This document shows positions 4,783-16,108 of a stretch of DNA of 64,000 nucleotides, one piece after another. This stretch comes from an uncultured bacterium. GTDB lineage: Bacteria > Bacillota_I > Bacilli_A > RFN20 > CAG-826. Positions within the stretch are counted from its first letter, which is position 1. Each line of letters opens with the position of its first letter. A program made the translations under genes and the position numbers. The stretch is from assembly GCA_949290395.1 (NCBI GenBank), contig CASERQ010000005.1:1-64000 (forward strand). The letters are read 5' to 3'. The notes beneath the pieces were generated by a model, which saw only the letters and a program-made list of their open reading frames with translations, was not told the origin of the DNA and ran no database searches.

Positions 4783-6699
4783 ATGTCTGAAACAAGAGAA
4801 TTCCAAGCTGAAAGTAAAGAATTGCTTCAATTAATGATCAATTCTATTTATTCAAACAAAGAAATATTTTTAAGAGAGCTAATTTCAAACGCAAGCGACG
4901 CGATTGATAAATATAAATATGAAGAATTAACAAGCGAAGGAAAAGTTCCTGGAAAAAGTTATGAAATTTGGCTTGAACCAAACAAGGCAAACAGAACATT
5001 AACTATTACCGATAACGGAATCGGTATGACTAAAGATGAATTAATTTCAAATTTAGGTACCATTGCTCATAGTGGTAGTAAGGAATTTTTAGAAAAGATT
5101 AAAGAAGCAAAAGAGAAAAACGAATTCGATATTATTGGTCAATTCGGTGTTGGCTTCTATAGTGCTTTTATCGTTGCAGATAGTGTTGAAGTGCATACTA
5201 AATCCATTAACGATGAACATGGTTATGTTTTTACAAGCGATGGTAAATCAAGTTATACAATTGATGAAGAAGACTTGAGTGAAAGCGGAACAAAGATTGT
5301 TTTACATTTAAGAGAAAATTCTGATGATGAAAATTTTGATAAATATCTTGAAAACTATGAAATTGAATCATTAGTTAAAAAGTATAGCGATTTCGTAAGA
5401 TATCCTATCAAAATGAAAGTAATGGAAAAAGTTTCTTCAAAAAATGAAGAGGATAAAGATTTAACTGATAATCAAGAAGAAAAAGAAGTTGTTAAGACTT
5501 TAAATTCGATGATTCCTCTTTGGAAAAAGAACAAAAAAAATGTTACTGAAGAAGAGTTAAATTCTTTTTATAAAGCAAACTTCATGGATTATGAAGATCC
5601 ATTATTAGCAATTAATTTAAATGTTGAAGGCGTTGTAAATTTTAACTCTTTAGTATTTATTCCTTCACACATTCCTTATGATTTATACTCACAAAATTAT
5701 GAAAAAGGTTTAAAACTTTATATTAAAGGAATTTATATTAAAGAAAAAGCTCATGAACTTGTTCCTGATTACCTCAAGTTCATTAAAGGTCTTGTTGATA
5801 CAAATGACTTAAGTCTTAATATCTCAAGAGAAATGTTACAAGAAGATCCAAGACTTAAGAAAATTAGTGAAACTATTGAAACCAAAGTTATTAGTAATCT
5901 AAAAGATCTTAAAAATAATGACTACGATAAATATTTAAAATTCTATAGTCTTTATGGCGAACACTTAATGTTTGGAATTTATTCAAGTTACGGATTTAAA
6001 AAGAATGTTTTAGCTGACTTATTAGTCTTTAATTCTTTAAATAGTGATAAAGAAATTGATTTAAAGAAATATAAAGATGAAATGAAGGAAGGCCAAAAAT
6101 ATATTTATTATGCTAGCGGAAAAACAGTTGATAGCATTAAACTTCTTCCTGAAATTGAAAAGTTTAAAAAGGATGGTGTCAATGTCTTGTTCTTAACAAA
6201 GAATATTGACGAGTTTGCTTTCCAAATGATGAATGAATATGAAAAGATTCCATTTAAAAATATTACCGAGCACGATAAAGATGCTTTAAGTGAAGAAGAA
6301 AAGAGTGACTTAGAAGTAAAAGAAGCAGAAAACAAAGAACTTCTTGATAACATGAAAGAGGCTTTAGGTGATAAAGTTGATAAAGTCGCAATTTCTACAA
6401 AACTTGTTGATTCTCCTGTCTGTATTTCAACTCAAAATGGTCTTTCATTAAATATGGAACAAACAATTAATGAGATTCCAGGAGATGAAAAAGCAAAAGC
6501 TAGTAAGGTGCTTGAGATTAATCCAAACCATGAATTATTTAAAGCTATTTCTGAGTTTAAAGGCGATAAAGAAGCCATCAAAAAATATAGTGACGTTTTA
6601 TATAACGAAGCTATGTTGCTTGAAGGATTTGATATAGAAGATAAAACTTCATTTATCAAAAACTTGAATGAATTAATGCTTAAAGCTTTAAAGAAATAA
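4783..6699 (+). CDS. htpG: molecular chaperone HtpG (Hsp90)
   Basis: ATP-driven cytoplasmic Hsp90 chaperone. The 638 residues begin with the family signature ETREFQAE and RELISNASDAIDK, with the GHKL ATPase motifs DNGIGM near residue 80 and GQFGVGFYSAF near 120. The middle domain includes LNISREMLQ around residue 350 and the C-terminal dimerisation domain follows. Length is normal. It lies 55 bases after hsp20, behind a hairpin, with AAGGAG before the ATG, and probably shares the CIRCE-controlled promoter. A strong terminator follows. Confidence 0.97.
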   Translation: MSETREFQAESKELLQLMINSIYSNKEIFLRELISNASDAIDKYKYEELTSEGKVPGKSYEIWLEPNKANRTLTITDNGIGMTKDELISNLGTIAHSGSKEFLEKIKEAKEKNEFDIIGQFGVGFYSAFIVADSVEVHTKSINDEHGYVFTSDGKSSYTIDEEDLSESGTKIVLHLRENSDDENFDKYLENYEIESLVKKYSDFVRYPIKMKVMEKVSSKNEEDKDLTDNQEEKEVVKTLNSMIPLWKKNKKNVTEEELNSFYKANFMDYEDPLLAINLNVEGVVNFNSLVFIPSHIPYDLYSQNYEKGLKLYIKGIYIKEKAHELVPDYLKFIKGLVDTNDLSLNISREMLQEDPRLKKISETIETKVISNLKDLKNNDYDKYLKFYSLYGEHLMFGIYSSYGFKKNVLADLLVFNSLNSDKEIDLKKYKDEMKEGQKYIYYASGKTVDSIKLLPEIEKFKKDGVNVLFLTKNIDEFAFQMMNEYEKIPFKNITEHDKDALSEEEKSDLEVKEAENKELLDNMKEALGDKVDKVAISTKLVDSPVCISTQNGLSLNMEQTINEIPGDEKAKASKVLEINPNHELFKAISEFKGDKEAIKKYSDVLYNEAMLLEGFDIEDKTSFIKNLNELMLKALKK

Positions 6700-11523: not shown

Positions 11524-11532
11524 TGGTATAAT
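11524..11532 (+). promoter_or_regulatory. extended -10 (TGGTATAAT) directly before the response regulator
   Basis: TG-G-TATAAT is followed by TACCGC and then ATG at 11539. The extended -10 explains the lack of a good -35. The distance predicts a leaderless message, and no Shine-Dalgarno is present. Confidence 0.6.
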
Positions 11533-11538
11533 TACCGC

Positions 11539-12228
11539 ATGGAAAGAGAAAGCAAGGTAATCCTTGTAGTTGAACCAGATAGGGTTTGGCAAGCAAGAAT
11601 AAAAAACGATTTAAAAGATAACGGGTACAAAGTTGCTTCTGTCGACACCGCTCAAAGTGCTATAGATTTTTGTATTAAAAACGTTGTTGATATTGTTTTA
11701 CTTGAATTAAATTTGCCTGATAAAGATGGGATTTATTTTATTCAAACTATCAGAAGTTTTAACAACTCTTTACCAATTATCGTAGTTTCTTCAAGAAATT
11801 TAACTGAAACAAAAGTTTTGGCTTTAGATGCTGGCGCAAATGACTATATGGTTAAGCCATTTCATTTATCTGAACTTGAAGCACGTATAAGAAAAGAGCT
11901 TCGTTACATAATTAATGAAGAAAAACATCTTTTTATTAATGGAAATCTAGCCATTGATTATGATGCTAAAACAATTTATATAAATGGAGTTGAAGTCCAT
12001 TTTACAAATTTTGAATACAAAATTATTGTCTTACTTGCCTATAATTTAGGAAAAACTCTTACATACGATTATATTATTGATCATGTATGGGGTAAAAACG
12101 GCCAAGACCAAAACGGATTACGTGTTTTTATGGCTGGGATTAGAAAGAAGACAAGTCGCGATAACAAATCATCGAAACTTATCAGAACAGATATTGGCGT
12201 TGGTTATCGTATGAACAAAATTAAATAA
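11539..12228 (+). CDS. orphan OmpR/PhoB-type response regulator with Glu at the phosphoacceptor site
   Basis: A DNA-binding regulator of 229 residues with a receiver domain (1-120) and a winged-helix transcriptional domain (about 130-229, with the conserved GVGYR near the C-terminus). Two key receiver residues differ. The phosphoacceptor Asp is Glu56 (LLELNLPDKDG), and one acidic-pocket Asp is replaced (VVEPD at 11-14). The switch Ser and the Lys in VKPF are kept. No histidine kinase is adjacent. It may therefore act without phosphorylation, or Glu56 may mimic the phosphorylated state. The message seems leaderless. A small membrane protein follows 20 bases later. Confidence 0.9.
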   Translation: MERESKVILVVEPDRVWQARIKNDLKDNGYKVASVDTAQSAIDFCIKNVVDIVLLELNLPDKDGIYFIQTIRSFNNSLPIIVVSSRNLTETKVLALDAGANDYMVKPFHLSELEARIRKELRYIINEEKHLFINGNLAIDYDAKTIYINGVEVHFTNFEYKIIVLLAYNLGKTLTYDYIIDHVWGKNGQDQNGLRVFMAGIRKKTSRDNKSSKLIRTDIGVGYRMNKIK

Positions 12229-12248: not shown

Positions 12249-12686
12249 ATGAGAAATTTTTTTGGTAGAATCCTTATTTTGCTTGCATCAATAATTAATA
12301 TTATTTTGATATTAGTTATTGGATGTTCTGCTGTTTTTGATTTAGCAACAAGAACAGAAGATTTTAATCTTGCCTATAATGGTGGAAATCAACTTGTAAA
12401 CATAATTGATGCCTCACTATTTTTCTTATTTTTTATTGCTTTTATTGTTCTAACAATTTGGTGCATTAAAAATATCGCAACCGCACGACCAATGAAGCAA
12501 AATCTAATTGGGACTAATGTTTTATTAGTTATTGAAATTACATATTTCACTTACCATCTTTCTGTACCAGGTGTGCTTATCACTAACTTAGGCTTATTTA
12601 TTGGTGTTGGTATAACTTATTTTTTAACTACACTAGCTTTACTTACTGGTTGTATAGCTAATTTTTATAAAGACTGTAATAATTAA
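12249..12686 (+). CDS. four-helix membrane protein, unknown function
   Basis: A 145-residue hydrophobic protein with four predicted membrane spans (about residues 5-28, 52-72, 85-105 and 110-135). No conserved motif is recognised. It starts 20 bases after the response regulator with no clear ribosome site, so co-transcription or translational coupling is likely. This makes it a possible target or partner of the regulator. Confidence 0.65.
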   Translation: MRNFFGRILILLASIINIILILVIGCSAVFDLATRTEDFNLAYNGGNQLVNIIDASLFFLFFIAFIVLTIWCIKNIATARPMKQNLIGTNVLLVIEITYFTYHLSVPGVLITNLGLFIGVGITYFLTTLALLTGCIANFYKDCNN

Positions 12687-12725
12687 AATATTGTTTTCTG
12701 ATATTTAATTTTTTATATTTAATTG

Positions 12726-12739
12726 AGAAAGCGCTTTCA
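12726..12739 (+). promoter_or_regulatory. cre-like site upstream of rex-adhE
   Basis: AGAAAGCGCTTTCA matches the cre consensus TGAAAGCGCTTTCA at 13 of 14 positions and contains a perfect 12-base palindrome. It lies about 35 bases before the proposed -35, a place where CcpA usually activates rather than represses. CcpA is not in the window. Confidence 0.6.
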
Positions 12740-12772
12740 TAGTTTTTTAAAGTGTTTTCAATCAAATCTCAC

Positions 12773-12802
12773 TTTACAAAAGAAGTGGATTTTGAGTATT
12801 AT
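12773..12802 (+). promoter_or_regulatory. probable promoter of rex-adhE
   Basis: TTTACA (12773-12778), 18 bases, TATTAT (12797-12802). Transcription would start near 12809, about 22 bases before the chosen rex start codon. Confidence 0.55.
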
Positions 12803-12806
12803 TAAC

Positions 12807-12824
12807 TCGGTAAAAAAATACCGA
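12807..12824 (+). promoter_or_regulatory. Rex-like operator candidate over the transcription start
   Basis: TCGGTA-AAAAAA-TACCGA is a perfect 6-6-6 inverted repeat. Rex operators have the same layout (TTGTGA-N6-TCACAA) but different arm sequences. It overlaps the predicted +1, so Rex could autoregulate the rex-adhE operon here. The match is by geometry only. Confidence 0.4.
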
Positions 12825-12830
12825 CTTACG

Positions 12831-13481
12831 ATGATGAGAAAAGCGAAACTAACAAAAAACCAATTACATCGTTTACCAGAGTATCTCTGGGTTTTAAAAA
12901 ATCTTGAAAGTAATGGTTTAAAAACTGTTAACTCTCAAACATTAGCGGATTGTTTAGATTTAAATAACGAACTTGTTAGAAAAGATATCGCTTCGATCAG
13001 CACGGAGAATGGCGTACCAAACAAAGGACGTAAAATTGTCCAATTGATTTCTGACATTGAAACTATTTTAGGTTTTAATACTATTTCAAATGCTATTCTT
13101 GTTGGAGTTGGTAGTTTAGGTACCGCTTTTTTGCACTATAAAGGATTTGAGGACTTTGGTTTAAAAATTGTCGCTGGATTTGATAGTAATCCTTTATTAA
13201 GTGGTAAAGAAGTAGGAAATAAGCCAGTTTACGATGTTAGCGAATTAACTGAAGAGAAAATCAAAGAGTTAAATGCACACATCGGCATTATAACTGTACC
13301 TGGATATGCTGCCCAGGTTGTTGCAGACACCTTAGTTAAAGCAAAAATTCAAGGCATTTGGAATTTTGCTCCAACTAAGCTTAATGTTCCTGATAACGTA
13401 ATAGTTTCAAACATTAATCTTGCAACCTCCTTAGCTGTTTTATCCTATGAACTTTATTTTAGAAATGAAAAGGAGAATTAA
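12831..13481 (+). CDS. rex: redox-sensing transcriptional repressor Rex
   Basis: Dimeric repressor that senses the NADH/NAD ratio and controls fermentation genes. The N-terminal winged helix (RLPEYLWVLKNL, then LVRKDIA) precedes a Rossmann domain with GVGSLGTA near residue 93 and the conserved DSNP. The C-terminal swap helix follows. The frame extends 36 codons upstream to 12723, but that stretch does not look like Rex and would leave a 252-residue protein. Starting at 12831 (or 12834) gives the usual length of about 216 residues and fits the promoter. It is followed by adhE after 2 bases. Confidence 0.93.
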   Translation: MMRKAKLTKNQLHRLPEYLWVLKNLESNGLKTVNSQTLADCLDLNNELVRKDIASISTENGVPNKGRKIVQLISDIETILGFNTISNAILVGVGSLGTAFLHYKGFEDFGLKIVAGFDSNPLLSGKEVGNKPVYDVSELTEEKIKELNAHIGIITVPGYAAQVVADTLVKAKIQGIWNFAPTKLNVPDNVIVSNINLATSLAVLSYELYFRNEKEN

Positions 13482-13483
13482 AA

Positions 13484-16108
13484 ATGGATAAAGTTTTAAA
13501 CCCTGAAGCAGTAAAAGAAGTTGATGCTTTAGTTAAAAAAGGTGTTACTGCTTTAAATGAATTCGAAAAGCTTAACCAAGAACAAGTTGACTACATTGTT
13601 GCTAAAGTTTCAACAAAAGTTCTTGATCACCACGAATATCTTGCACGTCTTGCTATTCAAGAAACAAAAAGAGGTGTTTTTGAAGACAAATGTACTAAAA
13701 ACTTATTTGCTTGCGAATACATCACAAACGCAATGAGACACCTTAAAACTGTCGGCGTCATTTCTGATGATCCAGTTACAGGTATTACTGAAGTTGCAGA
13801 TCCACTCGGTGTTATCGCAGGTGTTACTCCTGTTACAAACCCAACAAGTACTGTTATCTTTAAATCATTAATCGCTTTAAAAACAAGAAACCCAATTATT
13901 TTCGGTTTCCATCCAAATGCGCAAAACTGCTGTGTTGAAACTGCAAAAATTATTGAAGAGGCAGCTGTCGCAGCTGGCGCTCCAAAAAATTGTGTTCAAT
14001 GGATTGAACACCCATCACTTGATGCAACAACAGCATTAATGGAACACAAAGATGTTGCATGTATTCTTGCAACTGGTGGTAATGCAATGGTTAGAGCAGC
14101 TTATAGCTGTGGAAAACCAGCTTTAGGTGTTGGCGCTGGTAACGTTCCTGCATATGTTGAGAAAACATGTAATGTTGCACAAGCTGCAAACGATATCTTA
14201 ATGTCAAAAGCATTTGATAATGGTATGGTTTGTGCTTCTGAACAAGCAGCTATTATTGATAAAGAGATTTATAACGAATTTGTTAAAAACATTAAAAAGT
14301 ATGGCGCTTATCTCTGTAACAAAGAAGAAAAAGCTATGCTTGAAAAATTAATGTTCCAACCAAACAAAGATGGTGTTGTTACTGGCGTTTTCCCACAAAT
14401 CGTTGGACACCCAGCTTGGGAAATTGCTGAAAGAGCTGGCTTCTCAGTTCCAAAAGATACTCCAATTTTAATGGTTGAATGTTCTAAAGTTGGCCCAGAA
14501 GAACCAATGACAAGAGAAAAACTTTCACCAGTTCTTGCTTTAATTAAATCAAATTCGACAGAAGATGGTTTCAACAAAGCAGAAGCTATGGTTGAATTCA
14601 ATGGTTTAGGACACTCTGCATGTATTCATACAGCTGATAAGAAGCTCGTTGATGAATTCGGCATCAGAATGAAAGCTTGTAGAATTATTTGGAACCAACC
14701 AACTTCCTTCGGTGGTATTGGTAACATTTATAACTCTTACTTACCATCCATGACACTTGGTTGTGGATCATATGGACACAACAGTGTTAGCGGTAACGTT
14801 AGTGCTATCAATTTAATTAATATTAAGAGAATCGGTAAGAGGAGAAATAATATGCAATGGTTCAAGGTTCCAAGCAAAATTTATATTGAAAGAAACAGCA
14901 TCCAATATTTAAAAGATGCTAAAAACGTTAATAAAGTATTTATCGTTACAGATAAATCCATGGTTCAACTTGGATTCATGCAAAAGATTATCGATCAACT
15001 CAAATTAAGAAGAAACGAAGTTACAATTCAACTCTTCACAGATGTTGAACCAGATCCAGATATCACAACAGTTAGAAAAGGTTGTGAATTAATGAAATCA
15101 TTCGAACCAGATACAATTATCGCTCTTGGTGGTGGTAGTGCAATGGATGCTGCAAAAGGTATGTGGTTATTCTATGAACATCCAGAAGTTAACTTCGACG
15201 ACTTAAAACAAAAATTCATGGATATCAGAAAGAGAGCTTTTAAATATCCTGAACTTGGTAAGAAGAGCAAACTCATTTGTATCCCAACAACTTCTGGTAC
15301 AGGTAGTGAAGTTACTCCATTTGCTGTTATCTCCGATAAAGCAAATAACAAGAAATACCCATTAACTGACTATTCTTTAACTCCAACTATCGCTATTGTT
15401 GATGCTGAATTTACAACAAACTTACCAGCAAGTGTTACAGCTGATACAGGTATGGACGTTTTAACTCACGCTCTTGAAGCTTATGTCAGTATGCTTGCAA
15501 CAGACTATACAGATGCTTTAGCTATTCAAGCTGCTCAAATGGTCTTCAAATATCTCCCAAGATGTGTTAAAAACGGTAAAAATGATTTAGAAGCTAGAGA
15601 AAAAATGCACAATGCTTCCACAATGGCTGGTATGGCATTCGCTAACGCATTCTTAGGTATGAACCACTCAATGGCTCATAAGATCGGTGGCTTATTCCAC
15701 GTCCCACACGGAAGAACAAACGCTGTCTTACTTCCATTTGTTGTTATGTATAATGGTGAAATTCCACAAAAACTCGGTACTTGGCCAAAATACAACGTCT
15801 ACGATGCAAACGAAAGATATGCAAATATTGCTAGACTTCTTGGCTTAAAGTTCAATACAACAGAAGAAGGCGTTAGAGCTCTTGCTGATGCAATCTATGA
15901 TTTAGGTATTGAATGTGGTGAAAAGATGAACTTCAAGGCTGAAGGTCTTGATGAAAAGACATGGATGGATGCAACAGAAGAATTAGCTTATGCTGCATTT
16001 GAAGATCAATGTACACCATGTAACCCAAGAATCCCATTAGTCGCTGATATGCAAGAAATTATGAAACAAGCATACTTCGGCTACGTTAAGGGAAAATCAA
16101 AAATCTAA
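13484..16108 (+). CDS. adhE: bifunctional acetaldehyde/alcohol dehydrogenase AdhE
   Basis: Converts acetyl-CoA to acetaldehyde and then ethanol, re-oxidising two NADH, and forms spirosomes in the cytoplasm. Residues 1-440 are the CoA-acylating aldehyde dehydrogenase with the catalytic Cys in NGMVCASEQ near residue 247. Residues 457-874 are the iron alcohol dehydrogenase with GGGSAMDAAK near 547 and the metal-binding GMNHSMAHKIGG and HVPHGRTNA. Length (874) is normal and the catalytic motifs are intact. It is in one operon with rex, consistent with direct redox control. A strong Shine-Dalgarno sits inside the linker between domains. Confidence 0.97.
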   Translation: MDKVLNPEAVKEVDALVKKGVTALNEFEKLNQEQVDYIVAKVSTKVLDHHEYLARLAIQETKRGVFEDKCTKNLFACEYITNAMRHLKTVGVISDDPVTGITEVADPLGVIAGVTPVTNPTSTVIFKSLIALKTRNPIIFGFHPNAQNCCVETAKIIEEAAVAAGAPKNCVQWIEHPSLDATTALMEHKDVACILATGGNAMVRAAYSCGKPALGVGAGNVPAYVEKTCNVAQAANDILMSKAFDNGMVCASEQAAIIDKEIYNEFVKNIKKYGAYLCNKEEKAMLEKLMFQPNKDGVVTGVFPQIVGHPAWEIAERAGFSVPKDTPILMVECSKVGPEEPMTREKLSPVLALIKSNSTEDGFNKAEAMVEFNGLGHSACIHTADKKLVDEFGIRMKACRIIWNQPTSFGGIGNIYNSYLPSMTLGCGSYGHNSVSGNVSAINLINIKRIGKRRNNMQWFKVPSKIYIERNSIQYLKDAKNVNKVFIVTDKSMVQLGFMQKIIDQLKLRRNEVTIQLFTDVEPDPDITTVRKGCELMKSFEPDTIIALGGGSAMDAAKGMWLFYEHPEVNFDDLKQKFMDIRKRAFKYPELGKKSKLICIPTTSGTGSEVTPFAVISDKANNKKYPLTDYSLTPTIAIVDAEFTTNLPASVTADTGMDVLTHALEAYVSMLATDYTDALAIQAAQMVFKYLPRCVKNGKNDLEAREKMHNASTMAGMAFANAFLGMNHSMAHKIGGLFHVPHGRTNAVLLPFVVMYNGEIPQKLGTWPKYNVYDANERYANIARLLGLKFNTTEEGVRALADAIYDLGIECGEKMNFKAEGLDEKTWMDATEELAYAAFEDQCTPCNPRIPLVADMQEIMKQAYFGYVKGKSKI
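14837..14854 (+). promoter_or_regulatory. internal ribosome site and in-frame ATG inside adhE
   Basis: AAGAGGAG (14837-14844) is followed 7 bases later by an in-frame ATG (14852, residue 457), exactly at the start of the iron-dehydrogenase domain. It could yield a separate alcohol dehydrogenase of 418 residues. The KRR-x-NM linker residues are also common in other AdhE proteins, so the signal may be a relic of gene fusion. Confidence 0.5.

Follow-up and report, generated by a model that had tools for sequence, protein, structure and literature searches.

The response regulator encoded at 11539..12228 of the window (the whole stretch of 64,000 nucleotides analyzed here) carries glutamate in place of its phosphoacceptor aspartate, and it belongs to a set of orthologues for which no cognate kinase is detectable across a genus of uncultured Bacilli. 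It is read here as the descendant of a KdpE-type regulator that lost its kinase and that would now act as a phosphorylation-independent dimer, activating operons of surface lipoproteins through a direct repeat. From the sequence comparisons described below, the probability of this reading is put at roughly 0.55. It proposes a controller for surface lipoproteins in these uncultured Bacilli.

The regulator and its phosphorylation site

The gene, its likely promoter element and the codons and domain discussed in this section are as follows.

11527..11532, + strand: TATAAT, likely -10 element, 6 nt before the regulator start codon
11539..12228, + strand: orphan KdpE-like OmpR-family response regulator, 229 aa (ORF translation, domain profiles, NCBIfam and PDB matches)
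11575..11577, + strand: codon 13, Pro replacing the second (metal-ligating) pocket acid (translation, alignment)
11704..11706, + strand: codon 56 (GAA), Glu replacing the phosphoacceptor Asp (translation, alignment, codons of relatives)
11788..11790, + strand: codon 84, switch Ser retained (alignment)
11854..11856, + strand: codon 106, conserved Lys retained (alignment)
11992..12213, + strand: OmpR-type winged-helix DNA-binding domain (PF00486 match)

In the product, PF00072 covers residues 8-118 as a complete receiver (E 3e-24, profile positions 1-111 of 111), and PF00486 covers residues 152-225 as a winged helix of the OmpR type (E 3e-14, 53.5 bits against a cut-off of 26.2). KdpE, of the KdpDE potassium system, is the closest match by family, sequence and fold: KdpE entries are the best PDB matches by sequence, KdpE-DNA complexes are the best fold matches of the predicted model (mean pLDDT 89, low in the linker), and KdpE is the best NCBIfam model, although the equivalog cut-off of that model, NF007820, is missed (143.4 bits against 325).

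An earlier note on this DNA had placed a Glu at the phosphorylation site and a Pro in the acidic pocket, with the switch Ser and the Lys intact, and translation and alignment bear out all of these points. When the window regulator was aligned with 30 relatives, Glu56 fell in a column that is Asp in 21 of the 31 rows; residues 12-14 read E-P-D where many relatives have E-D-D or D-E-D, and Ser84, Lys106 and also Tyr103 are retained. An alignment slip was ruled out because the alignment offers no other Asp that fits the acceptor position, and an assembly or sequencing error because four close relatives carry the same Glu, three of them as GAA and one as GAG.

By its residues the protein is an aspartate-less pseudo-receiver (ALR), recognized as a receiver and lacking the acceptor Asp, and it very probably cannot use Asp phosphorylation. 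Loss of the second pocket acid (Pro13) and retention of Lys106 are traits typical of this recognized class, in which Glu is given as the commonest replacement of Asp (26%) and the Lys position as usually kept (PMC4395418), and in which the second acid position is stated to be acidic in only 29% (PMC4395418; PMC12632262). Glu at the acceptor site is thus by itself ordinary, and the interest of the window regulator lies more in its history.

Kinases, orthologues and site 56 across the genus

The earlier note had also reported that no kinase lies nearby, which holds for the window, where the sole HATPase_c match is a chaperone. The neighboring genes of relevance are listed here.

4783-6699: HtpG, chaperone, the only HATPase_c match in the window
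12249..12686, + strand: small membrane protein, 145 aa, directly following the regulator; lineage-restricted
12723..13481, + strand: Rex redox repressor (profile matches)
13484-16108, after Rex: a product which we take from its sequence to be AdhE

The source genome (1.37 Mb and 96% complete, so that a kinase gene could have been missed) encodes three receivers and five HATPase_c proteins, the latter comprising two kinases, HtpG and two others. Both histidine kinases adjoin other regulators, one in a YesM/YesN-type pair and the other in a PhoR/PhoP pair behind the pst genes, which rules out a free kinase in this genome. Judged as a canonical two-component system, the window regulator has neither a cognate nor an unpaired kinase among those found in the source genome.

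The same picture extends to the genus, where an orthologue without stop codons is present in all 26 genomes. On the contig sequence available, 0 of 26 have a kinase within 10 kb of the orthologue, several orthologues lying only a few kb from a contig end beyond which a kinase could be located. KdpD (PF02702) was found in 0 of 26 genus genomes by a search that was positive in 6 of 14 known genomes used as a control. Among 150 HATPase_c matches in the genus, 77 are kinase-like; the other 73, whose frames measure about 600-730 aa, were not counted as kinases but assumed to be gyrase, ParE, HtpG and similar proteins, the HtpG of the window alone having been family-checked. Comparison of the 77 with 136 receivers placed 72 within 6 kb of another receiver, and the remaining five are short frames of 87-405 aa.

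The five best non-genus matches among 146 family genomes were used as outgroups, weaker family matches being excluded as orthologues. All five outgroup orthologues lie directly downstream of a DUF4118-HisKA-HATPase (KdpD-type) kinase, one of which is a full KdpD and another of which stands beside TrkH/TrkA, and all five carry Asp56. We infer that the ancestor of the genus lost the kinase of a KdpD/KdpE-like pair, with the regulator kept in every genome examined. No potassium genes were recognized beside the window regulator.

Control of the window regulator from a non-cognate source, be it cross-talk from PhoR, acetyl phosphate, phosphorylation of the Glu or an interacting protein, for instance the membrane protein encoded downstream, appears quite improbable. 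The pocket (acids 12 and 13, Asp56, Ser/Thr84 and Lys106) is complete in 13 of the 26 orthologues and Asp56 is kept in 16, so that in those species a role for acetyl phosphate or for a foreign kinase is conceivable; the window regulator, in contrast, has neither Asp56 nor the metal-ligating acid, and in its genome both kinases are already placed beside other regulators. As to a partner, the earlier note had described a four-helix membrane protein directly downstream and suggested that it might be the regulated or sensing partner. The position is correct and the helix count approximate, a hydropathy scan giving three segments (and three to five in three downstream ORFs of relatives). The protein follows the regulator immediately in each of the 10 genomes that have it, and was not found in the other 16; it diverges fast, with 53-63% identity within the Glu clade and 24-35% outside. 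This occurrence rules it out as a general sensor, and on its distribution it is a lineage-specific neighbor and no constant sensor. In G098 the regulator is followed by a 138-aa membrane protein (L063:5870) whose start resembles that of the 145-aa protein of the window (MKNIIGR / MRNFFGR); by eye it looks like a diverged homolog that was missed by the search.

Other neighbors are also shared by part of the genus. Rex lies near or after the regulator in 12 of 26 genomes, with or without the small membrane protein between them, these being the window, four Glu-clade relatives and seven genomes of other lineages. In nine other genomes a gene of 535-545 aa directly precedes the regulator; the one tested is a formate-tetrahydrofolate ligase and three more appear similar. 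The Rex ORF of the window as listed starts at TTG, but Rex models begin at ORF residues 37-43 and the true start is therefore probably the ATG at 12831 or 12834.

Site 56 is Asp in 16 of the 26 orthologues, Glu in eight, Cys in one and Ser in one. On the best tree Glu56 takes three changes, at least two of which are forced by supported branches, and placing all Glu rows in a single clade can be rejected (p-AU 5.3e-5; active-site columns excluded from the tree). Given the Asp outgroups, two or three separate gains of Glu56 would be the simplest history, and one gain plus a reversal a possible one. Acid 13 is lost in seven of the eight Glu56 rows (P, A, T, S, S, S and N, the exception being G158 with Glu), in 2 of 16 Asp56 rows and in the Cys56 and Ser56 rows; Ser84 and Lys106 are retained in all eight Glu56 rows. 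The joint loss of acid 13 and Asp56 gives a Fisher value of 0.003, uncorrected for kinship, and with only two or three independent events the association cannot reach significance in a phylogenetic pair test. In the proposed mechanism, having no dedicated kinase would have relaxed selection on the phosphorylation pocket, and the acceptor Asp would then have been replaced, two or three times by Glu and also by Cys and Ser, mostly together with the metal-ligating acid.

Relaxation of the pocket could also be taken as the beginning of decay, with the gene heading for loss, and two observations point that way: in none of the ten pairs compared does the receiver show better conservation than the DNA-binding domain, and the pocket has been lost repeatedly. 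Decay is nevertheless scarcely credible and was rejected, given the presence of the gene without stops in 26 of 26 genomes and low dN/dS in both domains (NG86, ten pairs; about 0.01-0.14 for the receiver and 0.01-0.06 for the DNA-binding domain, with dS saturated in several pairs). Both domains are under purifying selection, and residues 131-226 are 92-100% identical in five Glu-clade pairs. Residues K92, D102, E112 and R116 of the window regulator, which by the PhoB/OmpR interface belong to the alpha4-beta5-alpha5 dimer face, do not vary in alignment A1, even in the orthologues with Cys56 or Ser56. A1 comprises 22 of the 26 orthologues; of the four outside it (G113, G148, G153 and G154), G148 has Ser in place of D102. 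The most divergent orthologues are those of G146, G148, G149 and G156, at 41-43% identity. The receiver of the G153 orthologue (L047) reads DFFFFFLVD where its close relative G137 has DFCIKNIVD, a run of Phe codons that is possibly an assembly error.

Together with Ser84, Lys106 and the retained alpha4-beta5-alpha5 residues, Glu56 would favor an active dimer. The earlier note had argued that Glu can mimic phospho-Asp and that the factor may be constitutively active or respond to another signal. The latter part is still the best reading of an orphan without a detectable kinase. The causal role of Glu56, on the other hand, is open to doubt, since Asp, Cys and Ser orthologues have no detectable kinase either and since DNA binding by ChxR, a chlamydial pseudo-receiver with Glu at this position, is described as not abolished when the Glu is replaced (PMC4395418). 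A stronger form of the argument makes Glu56 a true phosphomimetic under selection, with the Glu lineages locked on and the Asp orthologues weakly on or driven by acetyl phosphate. We consider this rather unlikely. The Glu rows do not form one clade although many substitutions were possible, Ser84 and Lys106 are kept in 8 of 8 Glu rows as would-be binders of the carboxylate, and Asp to Glu is said to partly activate many response regulators (PMC12632262), all of which speak for it; yet changing one third codon position turns Asp into Glu (GAT/GAC to GAA/GAG, from 16 orthologues read), which makes recurrence cheap, some of the changes could be reversals, and Cys and Ser occur at the site as well.

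If activity does not depend on phosphorylation, it would be set in another way, and the promoter offers one candidate. In 17 of 26 orthologues an exact TATAAT precedes the start codon by 4-9 nt (in one case after manual relocation of the start), against 3.9% in shuffled upstream sequence; of the 58 ORFs of the window, 4 have it, the regulator included. This suggests that the regulator mRNA is leaderless. Control through protein level is plausible, and activity would be set either by the amount made from this probably leaderless promoter or by some ligand or partner.

A candidate operator and its probable reader

An 11-bp direct repeat, CTTAAT-N5-CTTAAT (counted as exact CTTAA-N6-CTTAA in either orientation), stands before the regulator gene in five of the 26 genomes, spanning three lineages (G155/G070, G098 and G143/G106). 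Of random 160-base windows taken from these loci, 0.25% contain an exact repeat, a comparison to be read with the fact that the repeat was derived from the same promoters in which it was then counted. One exact repeat was also found at a 15-bp period in the regulator upstream regions, and none was found before the regulator gene of the window species itself.

A genus-wide search with CTTAATAN4CTTAAT returned 44 exact matches, compared with 17 for the reversed pattern. Thirty of the 44 had loci and were classed, 25 as intergenic and five as inside genes, and the 25 intergenic repeats comprise 16 before lipoproteins, four before the orphan regulator and five with another target or none. From the other 14 matches, three were inspected, namely two in the source genome and the site at the regulator gene of G070. 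Fourteen of the 16 lipoproteins were assigned by a written rule of signal peptide plus lipobox and two (L178 and L183) by eye. On their ATTAAG side the sites have 18 genes at a distance of up to 200 bp, and by the rule 14 of these encode lipoproteins, against 7 of 304 background ORFs (Fisher p 3e-16, kinship of genomes ignored), and all lipoprotein sites have the same orientation, ATTAAG-N5-ATTAAG in the sense of the gene.

The source genome contains six repeat sites with at most one mismatch. Four are on contig C3, where four lipoproteins of one 31-kb stretch start 76, 106, 117 and 86 bp after them, each of these lipoproteins coming after a gap of about 140-390 bp; two of the four were judged by eye, the written rule having missed them. 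A subtilase and an oligopeptide ABC transporter are encoded in the stretch too, together with five further lipoproteins that have no repeat and whose starts lie at most about 80 bp from the preceding gene, in the manner of operon-internal genes. Another of the six sites is inside a 135-aa ORF. When two mismatches were allowed, the source genome gave 29 sites against 18 for the control, with 19 of the 29 inside genes, and the weaker sites are consequently taken to be mostly noise; among the intergenic ones, one is a second copy before the first C3 lipoprotein and another stands ahead of a further lipoprotein (L220).

Several observations were made around these sites. At positions of about 88000-126500 on C3 (L240, L241), large surface lipoproteins follow one another in a long series, and the majority of those tested have no Pfam match. 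The sixth site of the source genome, a one-mismatch repeat at C6:61229 (L197), lies near a contig end, ahead of sequence that by eye resembles a ribosomal RNA leader. In G143 and G106 (L191, L188) an exact repeat stands just before what by eye appears to be a tRNA gene.

The identity of the protein that reads the repeat can be narrowed down, as the source genome encodes only two PF00486 (OmpR-type DNA-binding) proteins, the orphan regulator and PhoP. A likely PhoP box, TTTACA or TTAACA at 11-bp steps, precedes pstS in the 14 promoters that were read; TTTACA-N5-TTTACA is present with at most two mismatches in 13 of the 14 and exactly in six, the box of G113, where the start was misplaced, being visible only at the edge. 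In the source genome the pstS box is an exact TTTACA-N5-TTTACA, the best CTTAAT score there is three mismatches, and by reading a third TTTACA unit is off the 11-bp step. A triple TTTACA pattern, tried as a genus-wide test for PhoP, was found in 3 of 26 genomes against four control places. The pstS promoters of the genus (L225-L239, L083) show the probable PhoP box in forms ranging from TTTACA repeats to TTAACA repeats.

Whether PhoP itself reads the lipoprotein repeats, leaving the orphan a different regulon perhaps near rex-adhE or formate-tetrahydrofolate ligase, has to be weighed at this point. PhoP is of the OmpR type too, it would recognize 11-bp TTAACA/TTTACA repeats before pstS, and in G143 and G153 its box is CTTAAC-N5-CTTAAC, two mismatches from the repeat, which makes reading by PhoP or by both proteins possible there; the neighbors of the orphan gene, rex in 12 of 26 genomes and a preceding formate-tetrahydrofolate ligase gene in another clade, would suit a separate regulon. 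We regard this alternative as unlikely, in view of the three mismatches that separate the source genome pstS box from CTTAAT at best, of lipoprotein repeats that are alike across clades and opposite to the pstS box in orientation relative to the gene, and of the repeat upstream of the orphan gene itself in five genomes. No intergenic exact repeat was found in the genomes with divergent orthologues (G146, G148, G149 and G156), and G156 keeps PhoP and its box. No exact repeat was found in G153 and G158 (74% and 70% complete) either, despite their ordinary orthologues. The orphan regulator is favored as the reader because there are only two OmpR-type proteins, because the PhoP box is distinct and because the repeat is missing where the orthologue is divergent.

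The mechanism favored here would then have the active dimer of the orphan regulator bind CTTAAT-N5-CTTAAT some 30-130 bp before start codons and activate operons of large surface lipoproteins and, in some species, its own gene. A more specific version, held tentatively and with less than even confidence, is that a single kinase loss was followed by parallel, convergent replacement of Asp by Glu (and by Cys and Ser), with the same operator and lipoprotein regulon being read by Asp and Glu orthologues alike. If this is true, constitutive activity preceded the phosphomimetic residue and is independent of it, and the genus would represent a natural experiment in the conversion of a two-component regulator into a stand-alone transcription factor.

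Comparison with known systems

ChxR, an OmpR/PhoB pseudo-receiver of Chlamydia trachomatis, resembles the window regulator in having Glu at the Asp position (PMC4395418), and in both proteins active-site residues are missing and an OmpR-type domain is present. ChxR is reported to dimerize, to bind DNA and activate while unphosphorylated, and to recognize sites in its own promoter (PMC3960148). It is the nearest functional precedent for the predicted activity of the window regulator. The two differ in that Asp, Glu, Cys and Ser states coexist here within one genus and in that the ancestor looks KdpE-like.

RitR and HP1043, both among the fold matches (5u8m, 2hqr), are further orphan aspartate-less regulators of the OmpR family that are described as independent of Asp phosphorylation. 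At the acceptor position HP1043 has a residue other than Glu. RitR has Asn there (PMC4395418), in contrast to the Glu of the window regulator, and is a redox sensor according to its PDB title, so that its regulation differs.

What seems new is the repeated loss of Asp56 within one kinase-less genus, combined with a predicted regulon; no such case appeared among the listed open-licence papers on orphan KdpE-like regulators, direct repeats at lipoprotein genes of Firmicutes, Asp to Glu replacement, ATTAAG direct repeats and pseudo-receiver convergence or kinase loss. How pseudo-receivers are switched on and off has been called a major unknown, and their functional convergence is said to be unclear (PMC12632262). 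With Asp, Glu, Cys and Ser orthologues, no detectable kinase and a predicted operator and target set, the genus would allow the effect of the site-56 residue to be tested within one regulon.

For the operator, the closest parallel is SaeR of Staphylococcus aureus, which has a dedicated kinase, SaeS, whereas none was found for the window regulator. The SaeR operator is GTTAA-N6-GTTAA, a string that occurs in two SaeRS papers, and CTTAA-N6-CTTAA in the present genus has the same architecture. The SaeR regulon includes surface proteins (PMC5083920), as do the predicted lipoprotein targets here. TTAA half-sites at an 11-bp period are found before surface-protein genes in this genus, with the orphan regulator as their putative reader.
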